Below, piece after piece: positions 20,953 through 27,337 of a stretch of 37,099 nt of DNA. Origin of the DNA: Chloroflexota bacterium. GTDB lineage: Bacteria; Chloroflexota; Limnocylindria; P2-11E. A model generated the notes under the pieces. That model ran no database searches, was not told the DNA's origin, and saw only the letters and a program-made list of their open reading frames with translations. Location: positions 1-37,099 of the forward strand of contig VBDQ01000031.1 in assembly GCA_005889075.1 (NCBI GenBank). The letters run 5' to 3'. A program made the translations under genes and the position numbers. Positions within the stretch are counted from its first letter, which is position 1. Each line of letters opens with the position of its first letter.

Positions 20953-22464
20953 TCATGCGACAGGCCGCTGGGTGAGCGCAGCCGAAAGCAAGACCTCATC
21001 GCCGCGCTTCTCGCCGACGTCGAGCTTCGCGCGGATGCGCGTGAGGTGTACGCGGAGCGTGTTCGGGGACACGCCCAAACGGCCCGCGAGCGATGCGCGG
21101 TCGAGGCGCTTGCCCTCGCGTGAGAGGAGCTCCATCTCCCGCAGGATCCCGAGCTCGCGCCACGTGAGGCCGACGGTCCGCAGGTAGAACGTCGCCTCGT
21201 CGAGCGCTGAAGCTCCAACTGCCGTGGCGCTGTCGGTCTTCGCGCGACGCAGTGCGGCCTCGGCGCGCGCGCGGATCTTTCGGGCCAGCTCGCGCGACGT
21301 GGGATCGCGCTCCGCGCTCCGGCCGAGCCACGCCGCGACCTCGGGCAGGTAGTAGGCGAAGCCCTCACCCCCGCGCGCGCCGATGTCGCGGACCAGCGAC
21401 ACCGCACGCGCCGCACCCCCGCCGCGGACCAGCGACTCCCGCCAGTACGCCGCGTGGACCGCCGCGCCGAGCGCCCAGTGCGCCATTCCGCGGGCCTCGA
21501 ACTCCTTCGCGGCCTCATCCAGCATGCGCACTCCTCCGCGCGGATCGCCTTTCTGCGCGCGGACGATCGCCCGCACGTCGTTCCGGAACTGCTCGTCCTC
21601 GGGGAAACCTTGCGGCGCGCGCGTGAGGATGCGGTCCGCCACGTCGGTCTCGCCGCGCAGCAGCGCCAGGTGCGCATGATCTTCTGCGGCACCGGTCGCG
21701 CTCTGGCGAGCGAGCCGGTCACCGTCGGCGATCTCGCCTCGCTCCATCCGTGCGCGCGCGAGGCAGAGGCACGTGTATCGCCAGACCGATGACCCGTACG
21801 CCCGCAGTCCGGCCTCGGACTTGGTGAATTCGTCGACGGCCTGATCGATTCGTCCCGACATCCAGTGGACGAAGCCCTGGGTGTAGATCGACCACGCCGT
21901 CTCCCACGGATCGTTGACCCGGGCGGCATTACGCGCGGTCGCCTCGGCGGCAGTCGTCGCGTCGACGTAATCGCCCGAGTGCGAGAGGAGGTGCGCGAGC
22001 TGGCGGCTCACCCTGGTCGCGACGAGATCACGCGAACGGCCCTTCGGAGCGGCCTGCAGCGCATCTTCGCAGCGACGCGCCCGCACGAGCGCTTCGGTGA
22101 CCTCGTTTTGCGCGGTGAGGACGATCGAGATGCCGAGCTGCAGCTCCGCCTGGATGAAGGGGTCCTGCGCGGCGTTCCGCTCAGCGAGCTTTTGGAGACG
22201 CGGCGAGTCCTCACGCCGGACGAGGTAATAAGAAAGGTGGAGCAAGTCGACGGCGACGCGCGCCTCGAGGAGCGGATCGTGGATCTGCGGTAGGACCTCG
22301 GAGAGCTCTGCCCACGCGAGGTCGAACGACTCGAAGTACTTGAGGCAACGCGCGCGGAGCACGCGGCGCTCGAGGCTCTGACGGCCGCTCGAAACTCCGG
22401 GGAGAAGACGCTCGGCGTCAGCGCGCGAAAGCGGCGCGAGCGCCTGCTCGCGCAAAGACGTCAC
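20953..22464 (-). CDS. TPR-type regulator with C-terminal LuxR-like HTH
   Basis: A 503-residue protein. Most of it (about 1-410) is an all-helical, TPR-like array with repeated Ala-rich helix pairs. The C-terminus (about 440-500) contains LTWRELGILREMELL, then LAGRLGVSPNTLRVHLTRIRAKL, a LuxR/GerE-type helix-turn-helix. There is no N-terminal STAND ATPase domain (no Walker A), unlike MalT-type relatives, so signalling through the repeats is likely. The start is GTG 22464; a TAATAC on the same strand (22474-22469) lies only 4 nt ahead of it, compatible with a leaderless mRNA. Targets are unknown. Confidence 0.85.
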   Translation of the reverse strand: MTSLREQALAPLSRADAERLLPGVSSGRQSLERRVLRARCLKYFESFDLAWAELSEVLPQIHDPLLEARVAVDLLHLSYYLVRREDSPRLQKLAERNAAQDPFIQAELQLGISIVLTAQNEVTEALVRARRCEDALQAAPKGRSRDLVATRVSRQLAHLLSHSGDYVDATTAAEATARNAARVNDPWETAWSIYTQGFVHWMSGRIDQAVDEFTKSEAGLRAYGSSVWRYTCLCLARARMERGEIADGDRLARQSATGAAEDHAHLALLRGETDVADRILTRAPQGFPEDEQFRNDVRAIVRAQKGDPRGGVRMLDEAAKEFEARGMAHWALGAAVHAAYWRESLVRGGGAARAVSLVRDIGARGGEGFAYYLPEVAAWLGRSAERDPTSRELARKIRARAEAALRRAKTDSATAVGASALDEATFYLRTVGLTWRELGILREMELLSREGKRLDRASLAGRLGVSPNTLRVHLTRIRAKLDVGEKRGDEVLLSAALTQRPVA

Positions 22465-22686: not shown

Positions 22687-23154
22687 CTATGCGGTGGGCG
22701 GAAACAGCGCCGCGAGGTCGCTTGCGTGCCCGTGCGAGTGATCGGCCTGGTAGGCCGCGAAATGCCCGGCGTCGACCTGGCCCCAGTCGCTGTGGACCCC
22801 CGGCCGCCCGGCAGCGCCCGGTCGCTGCAGGAGCTGGACGATCCGCCCGTGCGCCGCAGAAAGCCGGCGCGAGAGCTCCATCGGCTCGCGCTCGTTATTC
22901 CGGCGCTCCCGGGCGATCGCGTCCTGGTCGTACGAGGCGAGGCGCGGATTGTTCTCGTTCACGCAGCGCTCCACCCGGTCCGCGAAGATCTCGGCCGCGT
23001 CGGTGACGTGACCGATGACCTCGAGCGCGGTCCACTGGTCAAGCTTGGTCCCGCGTAGCTTCTCGGCCGGCACCGTCCGCACGATGCGCGCGATCGTCGC
23101 GGCGTCATCGGCGAGGAGAAAGGCCTTGTCGTCGTCGTAGCGCAGCCGTTCCAC
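22687..23154 (-). CDS. DinB-like four-helix metal-dependent protein
   Basis: A 155-residue DinB/YfiT-like protein. The WTALEVIGHVTDAAEIFADR helix carries the first metal-binding His, and the C-terminal GHFAAYQADHSHGHASDL carries the other His residues of the triad. The family binds zinc or nickel in a four-helix bundle; some members are thiol transferases, most are uncharacterised. The start is GTG 23154, giving MERLRYDDDKAFLLAD. It is transcribed away from the secreted-protein gene at 23235, with an 80-nt interval in which I see no clear promoter. Confidence 0.88.
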   Translation of the reverse strand: MERLRYDDDKAFLLADDAATIARIVRTVPAEKLRGTKLDQWTALEVIGHVTDAAEIFADRVERCVNENNPRLASYDQDAIARERRNNEREPMELSRRLSAAHGRIVQLLQRPGAAGRPGVHSDWGQVDAGHFAAYQADHSHGHASDLAALFPPTA

Positions 23155-23234: not shown

Positions 23235-24614
23235 ATGCGCGATCTCGCCGCCGCGACTGTGCTCGTCATCGTCATCGCGGTCGGCGCGCTCGCGCCCGCG
23301 TTGTGGCAGCCCAGGTTCGAGGGCCAAGCACTCGCCTCAACCGCGGTGTCGCCCACGGCGAGTCCGATGCCGCCTTCTTGGAAAGGGAAGGATCGCGGCT
23401 CGGGTTTCGTCGTCTGCGCCAAGAACGACTCCTGGTCGCGGCCCACCGTCGCCGAGGAGAACGCGCATCTTGCGGCCGACCCCCGCTACGCGAACGTCCG
23501 AGCGGACGACTCGTACTCACCCGCCTGGTCTCCGTTCCGCATGGGAGCGACCTTGTACGACGGCTCGACATCACGCGATGAGGTCATCGCCTTCACCGGC
23601 CTCTGGAGCGATCCGCGCGCCGGCGCTACGACGTCCGCGTGTGTTTCCTCCGAGCCGCAGGTGTGGCTCCTCGGCTACGCACCGGTGACGTACTGGGCGG
23701 AGGATCGACTGATCTCGGAGCTCCGGGTCGTTCCAGCGCCGGGCTACCAGATCGTCGTCATGACGGGAACGATTCGACGTCGGCTTGTCGTCGCGGACAA
23801 CATGAAAGTGGCCGTAATTCAGATGCCGGCGACGGCGCTAACTCCGACGCCTACGCCACCCCCGAAGCCCCCGGTCATTCAGACCCCGCCACCCTACGTC
23901 CCTCACTACACGCCCGCCCCAGCGATGCCCGAGACGACGAAACCGGTCGGATTCGAGCTCCCGCAAGAATGTCTCGCGAGCGCGCCGACACACTCAGAAG
24001 GGACGTTGTCGAACTCGACGAGCTGGGTCGTCTCGTGCCTGGACGTAAGCACAGCCCAGCTCGCGACCCTCATGAAGCGGGCGCTGTTCACACAAGGCTG
24101 GATCGAGGGACAGCAGCTGAGCGGCGGAGTTCACGAGTTCCTCAAAGGCGACCTCGAGGTCGACGTGCGGTTCCAGGACGGCGCGGGGTTCCCGACCGAT
24201 CGGATGTTCCTCGCCGAGCACTACATCTGCTGCGGCGTGGCGACCCCGCCGCCTTCGCCGGCGCCGGTCGACCTCATGCTGCCGCGAGGCTGCGGCATCT
24301 ACGAGAACGGCATCGGCATACGGACCGGCCAGGACGGCCAGGTGATCCACTGGATCGCGAACTGCCCGCCGATGATGAACGCCGACGAGCTCGCGACCGC
24401 CTTCGAGGCGAACGTCGAGGCGCAGGGTTGGGTGCGCACGACGTGGATGCCGCGCCGCGCGACCTATCGCCATCCCACCCGAGACCTGGAGTTGGTGCTC
24501 GAGTTCGTCGACGGCCACGTGTGGTTCGCGGAAGCCGGAAGCGTCATCGCCGCCCTGCCGCGATCGGCCCCGGCGTCCGCGGCACCAGCCGCCCCCGCCC
24601 CGCCGTCGCGGTGA
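23235..24614 (+). CDS. Secreted protein with duplicated C-terminal Cys-pair domain, unknown function
   Basis: A 459-residue exported protein that I cannot assign to a family. A hydrophobic signal or anchor (about 5-24) leads to a first domain (about 55-200) containing two Cys, then a Pro/Thr-rich linker (200-235). Two related domains follow at about 240-330 and 347-437. Each begins with LPxxC, has a Trp five to six residues before a second Cys (W264/C268 and W373/C377), then a Leu/Ala-rich helix ending in QGW (residues 287-289 and 397-399), and a beta-rich end with an acidic stretch. The repeats are diverged, which implies an old duplication. The ORF ends inside the 3' end of the convergent hydantoinase gene, overlapping it by 71 nt. 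Confidence 0.8.
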   Translation: MRDLAAATVLVIVIAVGALAPALWQPRFEGQALASTAVSPTASPMPPSWKGKDRGSGFVVCAKNDSWSRPTVAEENAHLAADPRYANVRADDSYSPAWSPFRMGATLYDGSTSRDEVIAFTGLWSDPRAGATTSACVSSEPQVWLLGYAPVTYWAEDRLISELRVVPAPGYQIVVMTGTIRRRLVVADNMKVAVIQMPATALTPTPTPPPKPPVIQTPPPYVPHYTPAPAMPETTKPVGFELPQECLASAPTHSEGTLSNSTSWVVSCLDVSTAQLATLMKRALFTQGWIEGQQLSGGVHEFLKGDLEVDVRFQDGAGFPTDRMFLAEHYICCGVATPPPSPAPVDLMLPRGCGIYENGIGIRTGQDGQVIHWIANCPPMMNADELATAFEANVEAQGWVRTTWMPRRATYRHPTRDLELVLEFVDGHVWFAEAGSVIAALPRSAPASAAPAAPAPPSR

Positions 24615-25908
24615 TTTCGCCGCTCTGATACACGATCTCTCCGCGCCCGATCACGATCTCGGGCCAGCCGGTGACCTCCCAACCTTCGTACGGGTCGTAG
24701 TCGCAGGCCGAGTGCAGCTCGGCGGCGCGGATGATCCGACGGGCGCCGGGGTCGAAGACCACGATGTCGGCATCCGATCCGACCGCAAGGGCGCCTTTCG
24801 TCGGATACATGCCCGCGATCCGCGCCGGGGCCGAGCAGAGCACCTCCACCAGTCGTCGGACCGTGATGCGTCCGTTCGCGACGCCCTCCGAATAGAGCAT
24901 CGGAAGCATCGTCTCGAGGTTGGAGACACCGGGCGGGATGCGGTCGAACGGCACGCCCGCCGCGAGCTTTGCCGCGCGCGGGTGCGGGATGTGGTCGGTG
25001 CCAACTGTGTCGAGCGTCCCGTCGGCGAGCGCGTCCCACGCCGCGGCGACGTCGTCCGGCTCGCGGAGTGGCGGCTGTCCGACCCAGAGCGCGCCGTCGG
25101 CGCGTCCGAAGCGCTCGCGCGTGAGATAGAGGTAGAGCGGTCGCGTCTCAGCGAAGACGCGAGCGCGCCGCTTTCCCTCGCGAACCGCGTCGAGAGCCGC
25201 GCGCGAGCTGAGATGCACGAGGTAGATCGCGGCGCCCGTCTGCACGGCGATGTCGATCGCCTCGCGCACCGCCTTCACCTCGGCCTCCACGGGCCGGCTC
25301 GCGGGGAAGTGCTCGACGCCGCTGCGGCCGGCCGCGAGGAGCTCGGCGGTCCGCGCCGCGACGATGGCGTGGTCCTCGGGATGTACCGCCACGAGCGCGC
25401 CGGCCTGGGCCGCCGAGCGCATCAGCGCGACGTAGTCATCGCGGCGTTCGACGAAGCGCGGGCTCACCATGAAGACCTTGAGTCCCGCGTGCCCCTGGGC
25501 GACCAGGTCTTTGATCTCGTCACGCGCGGCGTCGCTCGGATCGGTGACCACGACGTGGAACGAGAAATCCGCGATGGACCGCGTCGCATCGCGCAGACCG
25601 CGCTCGAGGCCGGCGCGGAGCGATCCGTCCTCCTGGTAGACCATCGACACCACCGTCGTCACGCCGCCCGCGACGGCGGCGCGCGAGCCGTGCGCGAAGT
25701 CGTCGAGCGGCGTCCACGTCGGCGTGGATGCCAGATGGGTGTGCAAGTCGACGCAGCCAGGAAGCACGATCTTCCCGCGCGCGTCCAGCTCTTTGCTCGC
25801 CGCCCGGACCTCACCGATGGCCGCGATGCGCTCGCCCGCGACGGCGATGTCAACGCGCTGCTCGCCGTCCGGAGTGACGACGAGACCGCCGCGGATCGCT
25901 AAGTCGAT
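24544..25908 (-). CDS. Hydantoinase/dihydropyrimidinase-like amidohydrolase with a non-canonical start
   Basis: Cyclic amidohydrolase of about 454 residues. With numbering from 25908: DLHTHL (His56, His58), GLKVFM (Lys144, the carbamylated metal bridge), HPEDH (His176), VHLSS (His232) and TDHIPH (Asp305), the complete binuclear metal set of hydantoinase/dihydropyrimidinase/allantoinase enzymes. It hydrolyses a cyclic amide; the substrate is not determined. The family N-terminus (IDLAIRGGLVVTPDG) begins at an ATC codon at 25908, with no ATG, GTG or TTG there. A CTG at 25938 would add 10 residues. A GTG at 26064 adds an Arg-rich stretch antisense to nothing but overlapping the membrane gene in another frame, and is unlikely. 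It overlaps the membrane gene by 10 nt. Confidence 0.9.
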   Translation of the reverse strand: MDLAIRGGLVVTPDGEQRVDIAVAGERIAAIGEVRAASKELDARGKIVLPGCVDLHTHLASTPTWTPLDDFAHGSRAAVAGGVTTVVSMVYQEDGSLRAGLERGLRDATRSIADFSFHVVVTDPSDAARDEIKDLVAQGHAGLKVFMVSPRFVERRDDYVALMRSAAQAGALVAVHPEDHAIVAARTAELLAAGRSGVEHFPASRPVEAEVKAVREAIDIAVQTGAAIYLVHLSSRAALDAVREGKRRARVFAETRPLYLYLTRERFGRADGALWVGQPPLREPDDVAAAWDALADGTLDTVGTDHIPHPRAAKLAAGVPFDRIPPGVSNLETMLPMLYSEGVANGRITVRRLVEVLCSAPARIAGMYPTKGALAVGSDADIVVFDPGARRIIRAAELHSACDYDPYEGWEVTGWPEIVIGRGEIVYQSGEITATAGRGRLVPRTPGPIAAGRR

Positions 25909-26234
25909 GCTGTCGTCCGGCGGGCGAAGAGAAGCCAGAACGCGACGCCAAGGCCGGCGAGCATGACCACGTGGATCCAGAAGTCGACGCCGAGGAGTCC
26001 ACGGAGGACGACGATCGTGAGGCCGAAGAGCGTTCCGGCGAGAACGATGACGTAAGCGATCCACGGACGGAGCACGCCTGCGAGGGTCACCAGGAGGACG
26101 AGACCGAGTAGCGCCTCGGCGATGCTCGCCGGCGCGAGCGCGCCGGCCGGGACGAACAGCCCAGAGTGATACGCCGCGGCAGCGAAATACACGAGCATGT
26201 TCGCGGCGGTGACGACTCGAAGCGTCCCGCTCAT
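25899..26234 (-). CDS. Small four-helix membrane protein of unknown function
   Basis: A 111-residue hydrophobic protein with about four predicted membrane helices: VVTAANMLVYFAAAAYHSGL, IAEALLGLVLLVTLAGVL, WIAYVIVLAGTLFGLTIVVL and IHVVMLAGLGVAFWLLFA. No motif lets me assign a family. It starts 2 nt after the prfA stop and its end overlaps the hydantoinase start, so it belongs to the ribosomal/prfA operon. Confidence 0.75.
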   Translation of the reverse strand: MSGTLRVVTAANMLVYFAAAAYHSGLFVPAGALAPASIAEALLGLVLLVTLAGVLRPWIAYVIVLAGTLFGLTIVVLRGLLGVDFWIHVVMLAGLGVAFWLLFARRTTAST

Positions 26235-26236
26235 CC

Positions 26237-27337
26237 TCAGTCGCCGTCCTCTTCAAGTCGAGAGAGCCGGTCGGCCTCGTCCTGTTGCGCGAGCGCGTCG
26301 ATCAGATCGTCGATCTCGCCGTCCATGCGGCGGTCGATGCTCGAAAGGTTGTAGCCAAGGCGGCGGTCCGTGATCCGATCGTCCCGATAGTTGTAGGTGC
26401 GCATCTTCTCCGCGCGCTCACCGCGGCCGATCTGCGCCCGGCGCGCCGAAGACTCCTTCTCCTCCTGCTCCGCGCGCATGCGCGCCAACAGACGCGACCG
26501 AAGCACCGCCATGGCCTTCGCCTTGTTCTTGAGCTGGCTTCGCTCGTCCTGACAGGTGACGACCTCGCCGGTCGGGATGTGGGTGATGCGCACGGCCGAG
26601 TCGGTGGTATTCACGCCCTGACCACCCTTGCCAGCCGCTCGGTAGACATCGATCTTGAGATCGTCTTCGCTGATCTGGAGATCGACGTCCTCGGCCTCCG
26701 GCAGCACGGCGACGGTCGCGGTCGACGTGTGGACGCGGCCCTGCGCCTCGGTCTTCGGCACCCGCTGCACACGGTGGACCCCGGACTCGAACTTGAGCTT
26801 CGAGTACGCGCCGCGACCGCCGACCTTGAAGATGATCTCCTTGAAGCCGCCCTTCTCGGAGTCGCTCTGCGACAGGATCTCGGTCCTCCAGCGATGCCGC
26901 TCGGCGTAGCGCGTGTACATACCGTAGAGGTCGCGCGCGAAGAGAGCCGCCTCTTCCCCACCCTCGCCCGCGCGGATCTCGACGATCACGTTCTTCTCAT
27001 CGAGGGGGTCGCGCGGGACGAGCTGGGAGCGAAGCTTGCCGCCGAGCGTTGCGATGTCGTCGGTCGCCTCGGCGAGCTCCTCACGCGCGAGGTCGCGCAG
27101 ATCGACGTCGTCGCCTTCGGTGAGCTCGCGCGCCTCGGCGGCCCGGCCCTCGGCGCTCCGGAGCTGGCGCACCGTGTCCACGACCGGCTCGAGCGCGGCG
27201 AACTCCTGTCCGACGGTCCGCAGGCGCGCCGGATCCGACGTCGTCGCCGGATCGGAGAGCAAGCGCCCGAGCTCGTCATATCGCTCTTCGACCTTCTCGA
27301 GTCGCTTGCGCAGGCCGGGCGTGAGCACGTCGGTCAT
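26237..27337 (-). CDS. prfA: Peptide chain release factor 1
   Basis: A 366-residue class I release factor. GKGGQGVNTTDS carries the peptidyl-tRNA hydrolysis motif GGQ (238-240), and QRVPKTEAQGRVHTS has PKT (194-196), the PxT tripeptide that in RF1 reads UAA/UAG. RF2 has SPF there, so this is RF1. The ATG overlaps the DUF1385 stop as ATGA. In many bacteria prmC, which methylates the GGQ Gln, follows directly; here a membrane gene does instead. Confidence 0.97.
   Translation of the reverse strand: MTDVLTPGLRKRLEKVEERYDELGRLLSDPATTSDPARLRTVGQEFAALEPVVDTVRQLRSAEGRAAEARELTEGDDVDLRDLAREELAEATDDIATLGGKLRSQLVPRDPLDEKNVIVEIRAGEGGEEAALFARDLYGMYTRYAERHRWRTEILSQSDSEKGGFKEIIFKVGGRGAYSKLKFESGVHRVQRVPKTEAQGRVHTSTATVAVLPEAEDVDLQISEDDLKIDVYRAAGKGGQGVNTTDSAVRITHIPTGEVVTCQDERSQLKNKAKAMAVLRSRLLARMRAEQEEKESSARRAQIGRGERAEKMRTYNYRDDRITDRRLGYNLSSIDRRMDGEIDDLIDALAQQDEADRLSRLEEDGD

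Follow-up and report, generated by a model that had tools for sequence, protein, structure and literature searches.

A probably extracytoplasmic Chloroflexota protein with two homologous, cysteine-paired domains of putative Mog1/PsbP-like fold

The locus and the layout of the protein

The window, i.e. the whole stretch of DNA that was analysed, comprises 37 099 nucleotides of a Chloroflexota genome (contig VBDQ01000031.1 of assembly GCA_005889075.1). The gene under study (23235–24614, forward strand; taken from the list of open reading frames) encodes a protein of 459 residues that occurs once in its own genome, and the frame is regarded as coding because homologues in other genomes support it. 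The protein consists, in order, of a hydrophobic N-terminus, an N-domain, a Pro/Thr-rich linker, a first domain (R1), a short linker, a second domain (R2) and an Ala/Pro-rich tail; the coordinates of these parts refer to the forward strand. The hydrophobic N-terminus (residues 1–26; 23235–23312) was assigned from hydropathy as a signal peptide or membrane anchor; the Kyte–Doolittle maximum of the protein lies here, with a mean of 2.48 across residues 4–22, which agrees with the signal region proposed in the first-pass annotation. Cleavage may occur at a possible AxA site, ALA (residues 32–34; 23328–23336), which was found by motif reading; the sequence ALAS is likewise present in the homologues from genomes G009, G006 and G003. 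Of nine proteins checked, four have a lipobox-like motif; in the window protein none was found within residues 1–40.

The N-domain (residues 45–200; 23367–23834) was delimited from a six-row alignment (A6), in which two cysteines (Cys61 and Cys136) are invariant. It has no family match: none of the six rows gave a Pfam match and a sequence comparison with solved structures gave nothing under an E value of 1.3. A linker follows (23835–23939), with proline and threonine making up 57% of residues 199–238. R1 (residues 236–334; 23940–24236) and R2 (residues 343–437; 24261–24545) were delimited by repeat comparison, alignment and model, and are separated by an eight-residue Pro-rich linker (24237–24260). 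The Ala/Pro-rich C-terminal tail (24546–24611) was, like this linker, assigned from the sequence.

The gene is flanked by a divergent neighbour on the reverse strand (22687–23154), which encodes a DinB-like protein (Pfam DinB_2, 5.5e-9), and by a convergent amidohydrolase ORF (24544–26256, reverse strand; ORF list and Pfam). The 3′ end of the latter overlaps the gene by 71 nt (24544–24614) on the opposite strand. A further ORF at 20953–22464 is LuxR-like by reading, with a sub-threshold TPR match only in Pfam. The dinB gene was found in 27 of the 28 genomes of the window's taxonomic family, and in 19 of these 27 it is adjoined by a relative of the 20953–22464 ORF. An N-domain gene lies within 1.5 kb of dinB in seven of the 27 (G000, G003, G006, G009, G024, G026 and G016). 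In G001, G004 and G007 an amidohydrolase match ends about 6–113 nt from the dinB match instead; among the matches listed, dinB is followed by a methyltransferase-like ORF in G002 and by a small membrane ORF and prfA in G010 and G005 (all named by reading). The stretch between dinB and prfA (loci L069–L095) thus looks like a variable slot that holds an amidohydrolase, a methyltransferase-like ORF, the window gene or nothing. Since the occupants beside dinB vary, the window gene is taken as an accessory occupant of this slot, and the neighbours give no hint of its function; the DinB-like neighbour is conserved and is treated simply as a neighbour.

The repeated domain: sequence, cysteines and predicted fold

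A Smith–Waterman comparison of R1 with R2 (BLOSUM62) gave a score of 57 with 11/1 gap penalties (shuffled sequences 24.3 ± 4.3) and of 69 with 8/1 penalties (shuffled 27.4 ± 5.5), and none of 2000 shuffles reached the observed score in either case. R1 and R2 are practically certain to be homologous repeats of about 95 residues. The first-pass annotation had placed a duplicated domain at 23952–24545, and these positions agree with the translation, in which residue 240 begins at 23952 and residue 437 finishes at 24545. The sequence features listed there were also recovered: an LPxxC motif in both copies (Cys246 in R1 and Cys353 in R2), a Trp four residues ahead of the second Cys (Trp264/Cys268 and Trp373/Cys377) and a helix, which is predicted in the models of both. 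The QGW motif that had been read as the end of the domain is present in both copies (at 287 and 397), but it closes a helix in the middle of the domain and is followed in each by four predicted strands.

Among 18 copies of the domain collected from related genomes, Leu7, Pro8, Cys11, Cys33 and Trp54 (domain numbering) are invariant, with identity to R1 mostly 20–30%. The invariant cysteine pair corresponds to Cys246 and Cys268 in R1, which has additional cysteines at 332–333, and to Cys353 and Cys377 in R2. The number of cysteines per domain is even in all 18, being either two or four: seven domains carry just a pair, another seven add a third after the QGW motif and a fourth near the C-terminus (these two co-occurring in 7/7) and four have a terminal CC pair in their place. 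The protein-wide count is even in 9/9 proteins, with the lipobox Cys of four excluded and with the proteins of G006 (run of N) and G024:C61 (in-frame stop) left out. The cysteines behind the lipobox are also even in number in the proteins from G008 (12) and G026:C43 (10), and in the G007 protein, whose start is not fixed, four cysteines follow the hydrophobic stretch, all of them belonging to the domain. Even and conserved cysteines fit disulfides in an exported protein. Disulfides within the R1/R2 domain are very probable, and the location of the window protein outside the cytoplasm is slightly more probable still. The folded extracytoplasmic domain with Cys pairs envisaged in the first-pass annotation is supported as probable. 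Against disulfides, a search for VKOR oxidase found none in the window's genome, which is 87% complete, and none in the 11 genomes sampled from the genus, so that the oxidising pathway is unproven; in the family the enzyme is patchy (7/28 genomes). Exported proteins with conserved, even cysteines nevertheless occur in this genus.

Pfam and NCBIfam scans of the window protein, of the domains and of the other members gave no usable match for the repeated domain, and no known domain was matched with confidence by both halves. The weak Pfam matches were to DEP (0.094–0.096), DUF7496 (0.085) and DUF7259 (0.11); in the window protein DEP (PF00610) matched R1 only, with an E value of 0.096 and a score of 13.1 bits, far short of the curated cut-off (32.7). 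Four NCBIfam families appeared at 0.093 or worse, with one member each. A sequence search of solved structures returned 7ue2 at 6.1e-5, a repeat protein for which no single stretch passes, as well as three further matches at 0.38 or worse and 5w7k at 0.54; all were rejected. A literature search of one limited collection (titles and abstract openings) yielded no description of a domain of this type.

AlphaFold2 models were built for R1 (pLDDT 76.5, pTM 0.67) and R2 (pLDDT 80.3, pTM 0.66). In both, short strands at the N-terminus lead into a longer run of one strand, a helix (model positions 38–51 for R1 and 41–54 for R2) and four final strands, a likeness that is partly non-independent because the same seven sequences lie behind both models. 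The order of elements, considered without coordinates, agrees with the Mog1/PsbP-like fold. In VIA-align, where models that lack a clear match typically reach a best Z of 7–8, the top solved structure for both halves is the N-terminal domain of PA1624 (PDB 6td9), with Z 8.8 for R1 (98 of 99 residues aligned, 3.1 Å) and Z 10.6 for R2 (93 of 95 residues, 2.5 Å), ahead of the next match by 1.6 and 2.4 Z units, respectively. With a common element order and a common best match, the two models are not unrelated. Both lists continue with SciW, EagT6, DcrB, PA94 and KA1 domains, with LppA (Z 5.3 for R1, 6.0 for R2) and PsbP (best Z 5.0 and 5.4) lower; BamC was matched by R1 alone, and Mog1 and LpqN (Z 4.7) are listed for R1. 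We take BamC, LppA, LpqN and PA94 to be members of the Mog1/PsbP-like group. Unrelated structures are close behind, namely KA1 (Z 5.7–7.4), a DEPDC5 domain (Z 6.4 and 7.2) and, for R2, spermine synthase (Z 6.2). Foldseek gave no match at E ≤ 0.001 for either model, the best being E 0.08 for R1 (unrelated PylRS chains) and E 0.035 for R2.

PA1624 is described as a hypothetical periplasmic protein of unknown function, and its domain 1 as distantly Mog1p/PsbP-like and related to DcrB by its authors (PMC7716261). The aligned part (residues 26–178) is this domain 1, which is likewise extracytoplasmic. It differs from the window domains in sequence (7 and 11% identity), in its larger size (residues 24–184) and in its fusion to an OmpA-like domain; R1 and R2 are shorter, occur as a repeat and have the invariant pair of cysteines. 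The DcrB/DUF1795 family (PF08786), including EagT6 and SciW, neighbours both halves at Z 6.1–8.2. DcrB itself is reported to be periplasmic, anchored in the membrane and a member of the Mog1p/PsbP family (PMC7716261). No sign of the N-terminal lipid-modified Cys of DcrB was seen in the window protein, given its lack of a lipobox-like motif over the residues checked. Pfam scans with an E limit of 10 did not list the DcrB family for the window protein or for 15 of the 18 domains; the other three were covered by scans of their entire proteins at E values up to 1, again without a DcrB match. PsbP_2 (PF18933) was not listed in the Pfam scans of members; in the phylum it was matched in seven of 151 Chloroflexota genomes at E ≤ 0.001, two above the cut-off, and the window's genome has no match at that level. 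The Chloroflexota proteins of this type begin with a loosely comparable strand–Pro–Trp motif. An hhalign comparison of the domain profile A5 with six of them (six of the eight matches), the one fold-member family covered by profile–profile comparison, gave a probability of 0.1% (E 0.68), against controls of 0.0% (negative, DinB) and of 97.8% with E 9.5e-13 (positive, profile A1 versus A3). Lpp-LpqN (PF10738) was not listed in the Pfam scans of members, and was matched in none of the 28 family genomes, but 14 control genomes were equally silent.

The Mog1/PsbP-like fold is accordingly the best reading of the R1/R2 models and a reasonably likely one, with membership unproven because the Foldseek E values are weak and there is no profile link to the PsbP_2-type proteins. 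A less likely explanation, but one that deserves weight, is an unrelated small α+β domain, KA1-like or with a fold of its own, whose arrangement is merely common to Mog1/PsbP-like proteins: KA1 scores Z 6.9 for R1 and 7.4 for R2, level with DcrB and EagT6, all Foldseek E values exceed 0.03 and the PsbP_2 profile link is absent. PA1624, however, is the top match of R1 and R2 alike, with almost all of the domain aligned, and several entries of DcrB, Eag and PsbP type recur in both lists. No KA1 family was listed in the Pfam scans of the window protein and of 15 of the 18 domains. The strand–helix–strands order, which presumably resembles that of cystatin, might also suggest a module of the protease-inhibitor type, a reading that we consider very improbable: the order of elements is all that speaks for it, and no cystatin is among the Foldseek and VIA matches listed. 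On the models, the Mog1/PsbP-like reading would probably make the domain a new sequence family on a known fold; the earlier statement that it could not be placed in a known family stands for the family databases searched and is modified at the level of fold.

Distribution, architectures and origin of the tandem pair

A search with the whole protein matched nine of 101 genomes (its own included) at E ≤ 0.01, two of them by chance on reading (G020:C83 and G017:C29). Domain profiles A1, A2, A4 and A5 widened this search to the 18 copies. These are spread over 14 proteins from 11 genomes, and every one of these genomes belongs to the taxonomic family of the window (11 of 28 genomes). With A5, 12 of the 177 genomes of the class were matched at E ≤ 0.01, 11 of them in the family; the twelfth (G159) is a partial match (E 0.003) over profile positions 13–58. 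A search of 400 phylum genomes turned up two matches outside the family (G306 and G248), both judged to be chance on reading, as were G017:C185 and G026:C56. These profile searches scored at most 12 candidates per genome in the phylum set and 28 in the class set, so that very divergent copies may exist elsewhere. A scan of genome contigs with the whole protein (45 stretches) gave no relative; with five lipoprotein-type rows it gave five loci (L051–L055), all from Chloroflexota, which add no members because they are identical places to the G024, G012, G010, G026 and G007 loci. The window-type rows (A1, nine rows) match the lipoprotein-type rows (A3, five rows) with the probability and E value given above for the positive control. 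An N-domain turned up in seven of the 177 genomes of the class, each a member of the window's family; in one of these (G016) no copy of the repeated domain was detected in the N-domain protein.

The domain was found in six architectures. The N-domain precedes two copies in four proteins (G000, G003, G006 and G009) and one copy in two (G024 and G026). A single copy stands behind a hydrophobic N-terminus in two (G026 and G007), and one copy follows another two-Cys domain in four lipoproteins (G020, G012, G010 and G024). One protein combines a WD40-like propeller (PD40, E 0.00035) with a two-Cys domain and one copy (G026), and in a lipobox protein (L042, G008:C203) the copy is followed by a BNR/Sortilin/YCF48-like propeller. 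In 13 of the 14 proteins no further recognised domain comes after the copy, or after the second copy where there are two. The survey for single-copy proteins suggested earlier thus found them, for example in G024, G026 and G007, all within the family. To judge from these sequences, the domain appears to be a mobile, lineage-specific module used in several different, probably extracytoplasmic, exported proteins.

The domain that precedes the copy in the lipoproteins and in one propeller protein is about 75 residues long and has two invariant cysteines (alignment A13; loci L017, L018, L019, L025 and L037). It gave no Pfam match in L017, L018, L019, L025 or L051 (the same place as L037), and the N-domain showed no profile relation to it or to the QGW domain.

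The tree of the 18 domains has good support at only three of its 15 inner branches. In it, R2 pairs with a stand-alone, single-domain protein from another genus (G026:C30; support 95/90, 46% identity). The R1 domains of G009, G003 and G006 cluster in the best tree (100/98) with the domains of the single-copy proteins from G024 and G026 and away from the R1 of the window; forcing them all together with the latter is not rejected (p-AU 0.194). In the remaining tandem proteins, different sub-types appear to be joined. The first-pass annotation had proposed a long-lived duplication. A diverged, homologous pair is what was found, but R2 is closest to the stand-alone protein rather than to R1, and the pair therefore looks like old modules brought together; exchange of modules among the proteins of the lineage would be the simplest reading, suggestive and not firm. 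Duplication in place within the gene, with both copies diverging since, would account for two adjacent and similar domains and for tandem proteins in four of the 11 genomes of the genus. We nevertheless regard it as unlikely, given the affinity of R2 for the G026 protein and the cost of forcing R1 and R2 to be sisters (8.6 log-likelihood units; p-AU 0.0365, a weak rejection); the placement of the G009, G003 and G006 R1 domains also argues against it, weakly in view of the p-AU of 0.194. A decaying accessory gene, diverging fast and being lost for lack of function, would fit the occurrence of the N-domain near dinB in seven of 27 genomes and the TAG codon at the conserved Trp of G024:C61. The chance of this is smaller again: Cys, Trp and the LP motif are kept invariant across domains mostly 20–30% identical to R1, the cysteine number is even in 18/18, and the domain is reused in several architectures. 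The in-frame TAG of G024:C61 (L006, match 1501–2484) marks either a broken gene or a sequencing error.

Proposed role

Taken as a whole, the explanation that we somewhat favor is a secreted or anchored accessory protein in which disulfide-stapled, Mog1/PsbP-like copies serve in non-catalytic docking. The hydrophobic N-terminus would export the protein and probably tether it, while the two-Cys N-domain and the Pro/Thr-rich spacer would hold out two domains of about 95 residues, probably disulfide-stapled. Each copy is predicted to start with a short hairpin, to continue with a strand and a single helix that QGW closes, and to finish with four more strands. By analogy with its structural neighbours, the domain may be non-catalytic and dock a partner protein, a membrane segment or a lipid-like ligand at the cell surface, and two unlike copies might provide two binding faces on one arm. 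A docking or ligand-binding role of R1 and R2 taken by itself is evenly balanced. As examples of what structural neighbours can do, Eag chaperones are reported to bind type VI effectors at their transmembrane segments (PMC7773334), and LpqN, reported to act as an accessory to MmpL3 (PMC7458404), may serve as a model for docking; the window protein may well do something else.

The attachment of the domain to lipoproteins and β-propellers in the same bacteria would suit a plug-in module. The domain family lies outside the Pfam and NCBIfam copies searched and belongs to a poorly studied soil lineage; it gains a testable fold and a module logic, a modest addition for most biologists. If the fold is true, the Mog1/PsbP-like group would gain very small members that are Cys-stapled, arranged in tandem and shuffled. 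More tentatively, the domain may be a new, lineage-confined, disulfide-stapled binding module that has been recombined among the surface proteins of soil Chloroflexota (tandem arms, lipoproteins and propellers), with the gene coming and going at one slot. Its use would then be akin to that of the immunoglobulin-like or PASTA modules of other bacteria.
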